From: Altererythrobacter sp. ZODW24
Lineage (GTDB): Bacteria; Pseudomonadota; Alphaproteobacteria; Sphingomonadales; Sphingomonadaceae
DNA: 64,000 bases
Direction of reading: 5' to 3'
Assembly: GCF_003344885.1 (NCBI RefSeq)
Contig: NZ_CP031155.1
Span: forward strand, 124,001-188,000
Part shown: piece by piece, positions 44,929 through 49,254 of the stretch
Numbering within the stretch: the first letter of the stretch is position 1
How the letters are laid out: each line of letters starts with the position of its first letter
Made by a program: the position numbers and the translations under genes
Notes under the pieces: model-generated
Databases searched by the model: none
Told to the model about the DNA's origin: nothing
What the model saw: only the letters and a program-made list of their open reading frames with translations

Positions 44929-46029
44929 ATGGCCGATCTTTTTGAAAACCCGCTTGGCCTCGACGGCTTTGACTTTGTCGAATTCAGCGCACCTGAGAAA
45001 GGCAAGCTAGAGCCTGTTTTTGAAAGCATGGGTTTCATGCGGATTGCATCACACCGTTCAAAAGACGTGCAGCTGTGGCGCCAAGGCGGCATCAATCTGA
45101 TCGCCAACTATGAAGCGCGTAGCCCGGCCGCATATTTCTCAGCTGAACACGGCCCATCCGCTTGCGGTATGGGCTTCCGGGTAAAGGATGCTGTTGCAGC
45201 ATACGAGGCGGCAATCGAACGCGGCGCTGAGCCCGTCCCTGTCAAAACAGGCCCGATGGAACTGAACATCCCCGGCATTCGCGGCATCGGTAACTCGATC
45301 ATCTATTTCGTGGACCGCTATGATGGCGCGCCAATGGGCAACCTGTCGATCTATGACATCGACTTCGTTTACGAAGAAGGCGTCGATCGGAACCCCGTCG
45401 GTGCTGGCATGAAGGTGATCGATCACCTCACGCACAACGTCTATCAAGGACGTATGGCGCATTGGGCCGAATTCTACGAACGCATATTCAACTTCCGCGA
45501 GATCCGTTACTTCGACATCAAGGGCGAATATACTGGTCTGACGTCGAAGGCGATGACAGCACCCGATGGTAAGATCCGTATCCCGCTGAATGAAGAAGGC
45601 GCGAATGGCGGTGGCCAGATCGAAGAATATTTGCGCGAGTATAACGGCGAAGGCATCCAGCACATCGCTCTGGCATGCGACGATCTCTATTCCTCATGGG
45701 ACCAGCTCAACGAATATGGCACGCCTTTCGCGAGCGCCCCGCCCGCGACATACTACGAGCAGTTAGAAGAGCGCTTGCCCGGCCACGGCGAAGATGTCGA
45801 AGGCCTAAAGCGCCGCGGCATTCTGCTGGACGGTTCGACCGAAAACAATGACCCGCGCCTTCTGTTGCAGATTTTTGGACAGACATCTATCGGCCCCGTG
45901 TTCTTCGAATTCATCCAGCGCAAGAAGGATGAAGGCTTCGGCGAAGGTAATTTTACCGCGCTGTTCAAGAGCATTGAAGCCGACCAAATGAAGCGCGGCG
46001 CCTTGAAGACAGAGGAGCCGGCTGAGTGA
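44929..46029 (+). CDS. hppD: 4-hydroxyphenylpyruvate dioxygenase
   Basis: Non-heme iron enzyme that converts 4-hydroxyphenylpyruvate to homogentisate in tyrosine breakdown, which also underlies pyomelanin formation. 366 residues with the two-domain VOC fold. Iron ligands: His in [12 protein letters not shown], His in [13 protein letters not shown] and Glu in [10 protein letters not shown]. The N-terminal domain starts [15 protein letters not shown]. The stop overlaps the GTG start of a VOC protein gene. The next pathway genes (homogentisate dioxygenase, fumarylacetoacetase) are not here. Confidence 0.95.
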
Positions 46030-46571
46030 GCACGAATCCGATCAAATTGGGCGGCGTCCACCACGCGGCCTATCGCTGTAAAGATGCCAAGGAGACGGTC
46101 GAGTGGTACGACCGTATTCTGGGCATGGAGTATGTCTCGGCGTTCTCGGAAGACACCGTGCCATCAACTGGCGAACATGATCCGTACATGCATGTGTTCC
46201 TTGATGCGGGGAACAACAACGTTCTCGCGTTTTTCGAACTGCCGACGCAGAAAGACATGGGACGCGACGAGAACACACCTGCCTGGGTTCAGCATCTGGC
46301 GTTCCGTGTCGCGTCTGAAGACGCGCTGCTCGCGGCAAAAGCGCATATCGAGAGCGAGGGCGTCGACGTGCTCGGCCCGACGCATCACGGTATCTTCAAA
46401 TCGATCTACTTCTTCGATCCGAACGGCCACCGCGTAGAGTTGGCGACCGACATTGGTACCGATGAGCAATATGCGGAACTGAAGCGTGTCGCTATGCCAA
46501 TGCTCGAAGAATGGAGCGAGACGAAGAAGGCTCCTCGCCACGCTGACTGGCTCCACTCAGCCAATAAGTAA
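46026..46571 (+). CDS. VOC-family metalloprotein
   Basis: 181 residues with a paired beta-alpha-beta-beta-beta fold. Possible metal ligands: His in [10 protein letters not shown], His in [10 protein letters not shown] and Glu in [10 protein letters not shown]. Family members include glyoxalase I, bleomycin resistance proteins and extradiol dioxygenases. The GTG start at 46026 overlaps the hppD stop by four bases, so it probably acts on an aromatic intermediate or product of that pathway (inference). I do not recognise a specific reaction. Confidence 0.82.
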
Positions 46572-47503: not shown

Positions 47504-48235
47504 TTAGCGGGCAACCAGACGGTGGCGCGCCATACTTTCATAATGCGGGCGCGCCTCGCCAGCTATCTTTTGCAATTCGGCAGGAAGCTCTTTTCGTTTT
47601 GGCGAGGGGCGCGCGAAGCCCGTTGATGCCTCCACCACGTCATACCAAGCGGGTGCCCAAACGCCGTCACTATCACGCTTTCCAGCGGGCCAAGAAAGCA
47701 TCTTGTCGCTGAATGGCAGCGTTAACGCATCACACAGAGCAGTCAAAACGCCGCGCGGTGACGCCAACACATCTGCTGTATCGACGACCGGCGGCGGCGC
47801 TCCCAGAATCTGTGCAGCCCGGTCAAATATCTCGGCTTGTTTGGCGACTCCGATTGCGTCCAGATCGATACCGTCATGCTTGCGAATATATGATGCGATC
47901 ACATCCGCCGGGTCACGGATGAGGAATGCGTTTGTGCAGTCTTTCATCCAGTCGAAGCCGATGCCAGATACCATGTGATGGCACATGTGCTTTTGGTACC
48001 AGACCGCAGCGCCGTCCGGTGCATTGCCCACCATGTCAGCGGCGACGGCACGCCAGTCATTCGGCTGCGACGCCAGCACCTCCTCGGTCATCGGATGCTG
48101 TAGCCCGGTTTCAGACAAGAATGCAGCGTAGAAAGGCTCGTCGCTCACCGCGCAATCGTCGCGGTTTTCGAATGAACGCATCATCGCTGTCGAGATGTTC
48201 CGCGGCCCCGACCACATCACAATACGCTTGGTCAT
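47504..48235 (-). CDS. P-loop sulfotransferase-like protein
   Basis: 243 residues. N-terminal MWSGPRNISTAMMRSFENRD resembles the 5'-phosphosulfate-binding loop of sulfotransferases, and AFLIRDPADVIASYIRKH the 3'-phosphate-binding motif. PAPS-dependent activity is plausible, but not proved by the motifs alone. Its start overlaps the stop of the class IV aminotransferase homologue by four bases (ATGA), so the two are translationally coupled. From memory, plants and fungi carry fusions of a sulfotransferase-like and an aminotransferase-like domain annotated as BCAT-like proteins, which supports a joint role. The reaction is unknown. Confidence 0.8.
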   Translation of the reverse strand: MTKRIVMWSGPRNISTAMMRSFENRDDCAVSDEPFYAAFLSETGLQHPMTEEVLASQPNDWRAVAADMVGNAPDGAAVWYQKHMCHHMVSGIGFDWMKDCTNAFLIRDPADVIASYIRKHDGIDLDAIGVAKQAEIFDRAAQILGAPPPVVDTADVLASPRGVLTALCDALTLPFSDKMLSWPAGKRDSDGVWAPAWYDVVEASTGFARPSPKRKELPAELQKIAGEARPHYESMARHRLVAR

Positions 48236-49146
48236 ACGAATGGGTGCTCCTTTGCGTAGTCATCCTTCATCCGCGCGTAGGTCTCCGCCATCAACTGAGT
48301 GACTGGCCCGTTTTCGTCGAGTTCGCGCCCGTCAATAGACCGCACAGGTGTCACCCCGCCCATTGTGCCGGTTACAAATGCTTCATCGGCGCTGGTAACA
48401 TGCTCGGGACTGAAGTGCCCTTGTTTCAGCGTTGCGGCACCAGCGCGGCATGCGTCGATGATGTTCATGCGGGTGATTCCGTTGAAGCAGTATGTGTCGC
48501 CTGACGTGAATACAGTCCCGTTCCTCACCCAAAAGAAATTGGTCGCATTGCAGCTTGCAATGTTGCCATGTGGATCGAGCATCAGGGCCTCGTCCGCTTC
48601 CCCGTCGATGGCTTCAAGCAGGGCCAGGATATAGTTGAGCCGGCTGTGCGAATTGAGGTGCATATCGAACATCTCAGGGCCAGAGGTGCGGATGCTGACA
48701 GTCTTCAGATTGAGACCTCTTGAGGTCTCTTTAGGGGGCACCTTGAATTCAGCTGTGCAAGCGATTGTTGGCTTGCCGAGGGAGAAACGCGGATCCTGAT
48801 TGATCGATGCCTTGGGCCCGCGTGTAACCATCAGCCGCAGATGGCCGCCGTCTTGCATTCGATTGGCTTCGAGCAGCCGCAACAAGTCTGCTTTCAGTTC
48901 ACCTTGTGTTTGGCCAATATCGAGCCTGATCTGGTCAGCTCCGGAATAGAGCCGATCCAGATGTGCATTGAGGAAAAGCAGAGAGCCCTTGTGAAGTCTC
49001 AGACCTTCCCAAACGCCATCACCCAGCCCGAAGCCGGCATCAAAAATTGAGACTTTGGCTTCGCGTGAAGGGACAAGTTCGCCGTTCAAGAGCACGCGTA
49101 AATCTGCATTGCGGGGATCGTCGGCGAAGTCTTGGCTTCCGGCCAT
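48232..49146 (-). CDS. Class IV aminotransferase homologue lacking the PLP lysine
   Basis: 304 residues with the fold-type IV layout of branched-chain aminotransferase, D-amino acid aminotransferase and aminodeoxychorismate lyase. Kept: FLNAHLDRLYSGA with the phosphate-binding Arg (R65), NGITRMNIID, and VTGTMGGVTPV. Lost: the region that should hold the Schiff-base lysine reads MHLNSHSRLNYILALLEA with no lysine anywhere (the likely position is R169 or S168), and the glutamate that contacts the PLP ring nitrogen (usually in T-E-x-x-x-x-N) is Ser in IASCNATNFF (S198). PLP-dependent transamination is therefore not expected. It overlaps the sulfotransferase-like gene. Confidence 0.85.
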   Translation of the reverse strand: MAGSQDFADDPRNADLRVLLNGELVPSREAKVSIFDAGFGLGDGVWEGLRLHKGSLLFLNAHLDRLYSGADQIRLDIGQTQGELKADLLRLLEANRMQDGGHLRLMVTRGPKASINQDPRFSLGKPTIACTAEFKVPPKETSRGLNLKTVSIRTSGPEMFDMHLNSHSRLNYILALLEAIDGEADEALMLDPHGNIASCNATNFFWVRNGTVFTSGDTYCFNGITRMNIIDACRAGAATLKQGHFSPEHVTSADEAFVTGTMGGVTPVRSIDGRELDENGPVTQLMAETYARMKDDYAKEHPFV

Positions 49147-49177: not shown

Positions 49178-49254
49178 TGGTGCGCCCGACAGGATTCGAA
49201 CCTGTGGCCTCCAGATTAGGAATCTGATGCTCTATCCGACTGAGCTACGGGCGC
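49178..49254 (-). tRNA. tRNA-Arg (anticodon CCU)
   Basis: 77-base cloverleaf on the minus strand including CCA. The acceptor arms GCGCCCG (5' end at 49254) and CGGGCGC pair fully. The anticodon stem TCAGA/TCTGG, with one T.G pair, encloses loop TTCCTAA, giving anticodon CCT, which reads AGG. The T arm ACAGGTTCGAATCCTGT is canonical. AGG is a rare codon in G+C-rich genomes. No integrase or direct repeat is next to it. Confidence 0.97.

Follow-up and report, generated by a model that had tools for sequence, protein, structure and literature searches.

The closest described relative of the protein considered in this report is an "aminotransferase-like protein" of Variovorax paradoxus, for which the wild-type structure (PDB 7z79) and a lysine-restoring mutant (9j32, titled N174K) are both public, so that the lack of the lysine in a protein of this kind has already been seen by others. 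These entries are the best PDB matches of our protein (~50-51% identity over nearly the full length); 7z79 comes from a different organism and is recognizable as a member of the same family, sharing with our protein an Asn at the lysine site and a Ser at the acid site. The branched-chain aminotransferases (BCATs) of the archaea Geoglobus (5cm0, 5e25) and Archaeoglobus (5mqz) and IlvE of E. coli are more distant (24-36% identity) and have in common with it PLP fold type IV, the architecture and the Arg, Thr and Thr of the phosphate cup but, unlike it, they keep both the lysine and the glutamate. The D-amino acid aminotransferase and 4-amino-4-deoxychorismate lyase, which are lysine-dependent enzymes, belong to the same superfamily.

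Two further comparisons involve sulfotransferases. The eukaryotic branched-chain-aminotransferase-like proteins At3g05190 and At5g27410 of Arabidopsis presumably carry the motif HSKLN and consist of an aminotransferase-like part fused to a sulfotransferase-like part; our literature search found no paper that names either of them. CurM, the sulfotransferase of curacin biosynthesis (4gbm), acts on an acyl chain bound to a carrier protein and is the best fold match (E 4.9e-7, TM 0.53, rmsd 9.1) of the sulfotransferase described below, to which its sequence match is weak (E 0.07).

In the open-access literature nothing was found on 7z79, on the lysine-less family, on its function or on its pairing with a sulfotransferase; neither the family-wide fixation of the Asn nor the pairing with Sulfotransfer_5 proteins was met there, although such an absence is weak evidence. 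The accessible portion of PMC9309667 contains nothing on the lysine-less family. In the accessible portion of PMC12506393, PF19798 figures among the nine models with which plant sulfotransferases were gathered, and the word "aminotransferase" is absent, and in that of PMC11625862 the PF19798 family is simply listed.

A gene pair on the minus strand

The window, by which we mean the whole stretch of 64,000 nucleotides of Altererythrobacter sp. ZODW24 DNA that was analysed, carries on its minus strand, at 48232..49146, an intact ORF for an aminotransferase-like protein of 304 amino acids (referred to here as P0001). The frame is open solely on that strand, from 49146 to 48232, and the plus-strand reading of 48232-49146 is interrupted by stops. 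By both sequence and fold P0001 matches the class IV aminotransferase superfamily: it scores 138.3 bits with the Pfam model Aminotran_4 (cut-off 28.5), and its AlphaFold2 model, built with 60 family relatives as input, has a mean pLDDT of 94.2 and lies close to 7z79 as well as to lysine-bearing aminotransferases (rmsd 1.1-1.5 on 7z79/9j32, and Z of 32-38 with other solved aminotransferases among the matches listed). The protein cannot be assigned to any of the 20 NCBIfam models that it matches, all 20 matches falling below the curated cut-offs; for the branched-chain aminotransferase IlvE (TIGR01122) it scores 165.7 bits against an equivalog cut-off of 245.55.

The neighboring gene, at 47504..48235 on the same strand, encodes a sulfotransferase of 243 amino acids that scores 220.4 bits with the Pfam model Sulfotransfer_5 (cut-off 23.2), and its ATG overlaps the stop of the aminotransferase-like gene by four bases (ATGA, 48235-48232). 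With its open frame, its overlap with the next gene and the strong conservation described below, the aminotransferase-like gene was rejected as a candidate pseudogene. The sulfotransferase model (pLDDT 95.9) retrieves sulfotransferases first in a fold search, but with weak superposition (TM ~0.4-0.6, rmsd 6-12), and the ranks close behind are taken by P-loop kinases, namely those for nucleotides and shikimate. A 68-row alignment, made up of 67 of the 72 chosen rows and the window sequence, displays as invariant W8-S9-G10-P11-R12-N13-x-S15-T16, R107 and S115, motifs that we take to resemble those that bind PAPS. The host could probably make PAPS, because its genome contains an APS kinase match.

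The lysine and glutamate sites across the family

Relatives of P0001 are widespread but patchily distributed. The protein occurs in 36 of 289 genomes of the class at >220 bits and in 41 of 398 genomes of the phylum at E 1e-40 or better; scanning 84,980 species genomes with a pattern yielded 69 loci, and 20 plasmid records contain relatives, eight of which entered our sequence sample. Within the taxonomic family of the window's own genome, 31 of 149 genomes carry the gene (nine of these 31 lie outside the sequence sample). The sample is a subset of all the relatives found and comprises 156 distinct sequences, including that of the window, after removal of 76 repeat matches; a recount on the aligned core again gave 156 distinct sequences, 147 of them at <97% identity, with the residue counts unchanged. 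Twelve weaker matches were set apart, namely the short L102 and eleven other relatives of fold type IV; the counts omit L102, with 66 residues matched, and L103, with 27.

The residues of interest were located by alignment with IlvE, where we take the roles of K159, E193, R59, T221 and T257 in the E. coli enzyme as given. The position of the Schiff-base lysine, K159, corresponds to Asn165 of P0001 (codon 48652..48654, minus strand), the N of HLNSHSRLN; all 156 family sequences have Asn here and none has Lys. The mutant lysine of 9j32 (N174K) aligns with this same Asn165, which confirms the register of the lysine site. At the position of E193, the glutamate that faces N1 of PLP, P0001 has Ser198 (48553..48555, minus strand), and the family has Ser (86) or Thr (70) and in no case Glu. 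The phosphate cup, on the other hand, is in place, with Arg65 (48952..48954; IlvE R59) and Thr225 of GITR (48472..48474; T221 of IlvE in the numbering of that alignment) present in 156/156 and Thr261 of TGT (48364..48366; IlvE T257) in 153, the other three having Ser; all three codons lie on the minus strand. An earlier note, made from the letters of the window, had described an absent lysine, a serine in place of the acid and an intact cup, and in these respects it was right. These residues make it improbable that P0001 is an ordinary transaminase working through a lysine Schiff base. The names under which the plasmid records list its relatives (aminotransferase class IV, D-amino acid aminotransferase or branched-chain aminotransferase) are doubtful, since the lysine is missing.

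According to the same note, the catalytic lysine of plant relatives would be the K of HSKLN. The IlvE alignment rejects this candidate: the K is residue 169, four positions downstream of the lysine site in HSKLN or HSRLN, and the bacterial HSKLN members that were examined also carry Asn at 165. In P0001 residue 169 is Arg (48640..48642, minus strand), and in the family it is either Arg (91) or Lys (65). Five sequences from the same taxonomic family as the window's genome (L109, L112, L113, L116 and L117) are of the Lys169 type, as opposed to the window's Arg169. Residues 169 and 198 vary together in the 156 sequences (R169 with S198 in 86, K169 with T198 in 65, R169 with T198 in five, K169 with S198 in none), a coupling that in part reflects shared ancestry.

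The proposal that both key positions had changed here together was correct in so far as the two losses coincide in a clade, as the note's own suggestion of aligning homologues brought out, but the change is not specific to P0001: Asn165 and Ser or Thr at 198 are each common to all 156 sequences. A recent double loss in P0001 was discarded as an explanation on this ground, as were sequencing error and chance. Alignment A1 was made up of 66 of 136 family rows, picked under 80% identity, plus the window. A quick tree places 68 family rows on one side of a branch and 10 lysine-bearing rows on the other with an SH-aLRT of 100, in a tree with long outgroup branches and one family row flagged as odd, and from which L144 was left out. 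The eleven fold type IV relatives that had been set apart all have the lysine, and 10 of the 11 have the glutamate; the exception, L144, has Cys at the acid site, so the acid can evidently be lost without loss of the lysine. Sequences L088, L090 and L091, from metagenome contigs labelled Planctomycetia or Phycisphaerales, are 57-58% identical copies and might be products of mis-binning or transfer; L089, which is similar to them, groups beside Caulobacter sequences in the tree.

Other polar positions are equally constrained. Besides N165, the residues S168, N200, H102, Q117 and E133 are invariant in 156/156 and family-specific; Arg104, a residue of the superfamily at large, is likewise invariant, and His167 is present in 154. 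The invariance of such polar residues across 156 sequences argues against decay, and the old age of the loss, with the site fixed as Asn, argues for a role for Asn165.

Sulfotransferase and transporter neighbors

The pairing seen in the window recurs across the class. Among the 289 genomes, 36 have the lysine-less protein, 27 have a Sulfotransfer_5 protein and 26 have both (Fisher p 8.8e-28, a value that overstates the independence of the genomes because they are related). The two genes are adjacent in 22 of the 26 double carriers and lie apart in the other four (G154, G080, G041 and G195), so that the association does not come only from physical linkage. Ten of the 36 genomes with the protein have no Sulfotransfer_5 match at E 1e-10, some of these genomes being incomplete.

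Gene context was compared at 69 loci (60 genome loci, eight plasmid stretches and the window), counting as a neighbor a sulfotransferase of >=38% identity within 1.3 kb on the same strand, or an ABC transporter ATPase of >=45% identity, accompanied by a permease if further off. By these thresholds 39 loci have a sulfotransferase as same-strand neighbor, 17 have an amino-acid-type ABC transporter nearby, 13 have neither and none has both; at some of the sulfotransferase loci an ABC ATPase of weaker match occurs at a greater distance (41% and 6.8 kb in L165, for example). Counted differently, in the species-genome scan, 61 of the 68 loci with a match also show a sulfotransferase within the stretch covered. 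Mapped on the tree, the context shows no fewer than 12 switches. In one ABC cluster the solute-binding protein was tested and belongs to SBP_bac_3, the type for polar amino acids, and some other loci adjoin other transporters. No single pathway is evident, since the 13 loci with neither partner have assorted transporters and other genes as neighbors.

At three loci (L152, L154 and L158) the lysine-less gene is clustered with an amino-acid ABC transporter, a ClcB-like chloride channel and a ProC-type reductase. A halogenated or pyrroline substrate was considered from these neighbors and set aside as a weak clue, the arrangement occurring in only 3 of the 69 loci.

Possible functions of the lysine-less protein

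The fold match, the missing lysine and glutamate, the retained cup, the invariant polar set and the genetic pairing together form the basis of the reading that we prefer, which in our estimation stands about an even chance of being right: P0001 would be a functional protein from an old branch of the class IV aminotransferases that lacks the lysine, and is predicted to be a small-molecule enzyme for amino-acid-type compounds that is linked to a sulfotransferase. Such an enzyme might dispense with an internal aldimine and act upon an amino-acid-type metabolite, and the partner sulfotransferase might make or use the same compound. The old phosphate cup could bind the substrate by its phosphate or sulfate group or else hold a non-covalent cofactor (PLP or PMP), while Asn165, His167, Ser168, Arg or Lys169 and Asn200 would stand in for the chemistry of the lysine and glutamate; elimination, hydrolysis and isomerization are candidate reactions. 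Several points count against this reading: the retained cup fits a sulfated substrate no better than plain PLP binding, the 13 loci with neither partner point to no common pathway, ten of the 36 genomes have no Sulfotransfer_5 match, and the partner's fold match superposes weakly. The host genome has two further aminotransferase domains that bear the lysine, which we take to be a BCAT and a PabC-like protein, and because the host keeps these lysine-bearing versions P0001 is probably not needed for their jobs. A narrower version of the preferred reading, which we consider doubtful, is that of a two-gene module in which an amino-acid-type compound would be sulfated on a hydroxyl by a PAPS-dependent sulfotransferase, and P0001 would hold the sulfate in its cup and use it as leaving group for a B6-independent elimination or cyclization. 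We assume this module to be fused into one protein in plants, and the curacin sulfotransferase reportedly uses sulfation as an activation for later elimination.

The intact cup agrees just as well with non-covalent binding of PLP or PMP and B6 chemistry without a lysine, a possibility that we take seriously but judge to be on the unlikely side. There are parallels in other folds, since the lysine-less sugar dehydratases of fold type I (ColD, E1) work with PMP, and enzymes of fold type II, the beta subunit of tryptophan synthase for example, tolerate Ser or Thr at N1; in fold type IV itself, the structure of an E177S mutant of D-amino acid aminotransferase has been solved (1g2w). Moreover, Arg169 aligns with a tyrosine of the archaeal BCATs that presumably touches O3' of PLP, and its charge could pair with the phenolate. 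What weakens the case for a bound cofactor is that two of its key contacts are replaced and that Asn200, two residues past the N1 site, is newly invariant. An ordinary PLP enzyme whose aldimine is formed by a relocated lysine appears very improbable. Candidates for that role are K169, in 65 of the 156 sequences, and K112, in 143; the window protein itself carries Arg at 169, however, and K112 is replaced by Arg in the remaining 13. Both types of residue 169 occur moreover in both genome contexts (31 K and 8 R beside a sulfotransferase, 5 K and 12 R near an ABC transporter), which suggests that this residue acts as a positive charge and not as a substitute for the Schiff-base lysine; a Lys169 that formed the Schiff base could not be exchanged for Arg unless the function changed as well.

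The overlap of the two genes and their co-occurrence in genomes might also be read to mean that P0001 has no catalytic role and serves the sulfotransferase as a binding or regulatory subunit, for instance by sensing a ligand that bears phosphate or sulfate. We hold this to be rather improbable in view of the ten genomes that have the protein and no Sulfotransfer_5 match and of the high conservation of those residues that the IlvE alignment places in the pocket. The earlier note had left the choice between a PLP-independent enzyme, a ligand binder and a regulator, a set of options that is partly supported here; a regulator seems less likely than a metabolic enzyme, given how strictly the residues are conserved and how often a sulfotransferase or a transporter accompanies the protein. 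For the predicted lysine-less enzyme, the sulfotransferase link and the transporter neighbors offer a testable route to the substrate and reaction of the family and, if the prediction is true, the existence of such a catalyst in this fold, free of the lysine, would illustrate how a B6 enzyme turns to other chemistry.

Some features of the surrounding DNA were also recorded. None of the patterns of a viral-contig scan matched, and the scan for transcription signals gave one promoter-like and three terminator-like sites, about the same number as in shuffled sequence. Upstream of the aminotransferase-like gene, and like it on the minus strand, is a gene for tRNA-Arg (anticodon CCT) at 49178-49254, whose end is 31 bases away; among 19 loci scanned the same tRNA was not found near the gene in 16 and was present in L035, L236 and L237. 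Two plus-strand ORFs at 44929-46571 read, as we interpret them, like a 4-hydroxyphenylpyruvate dioxygenase and a VOC/glyoxalase-like protein, and the ORF next to them is presumably that of an MscS-like channel.
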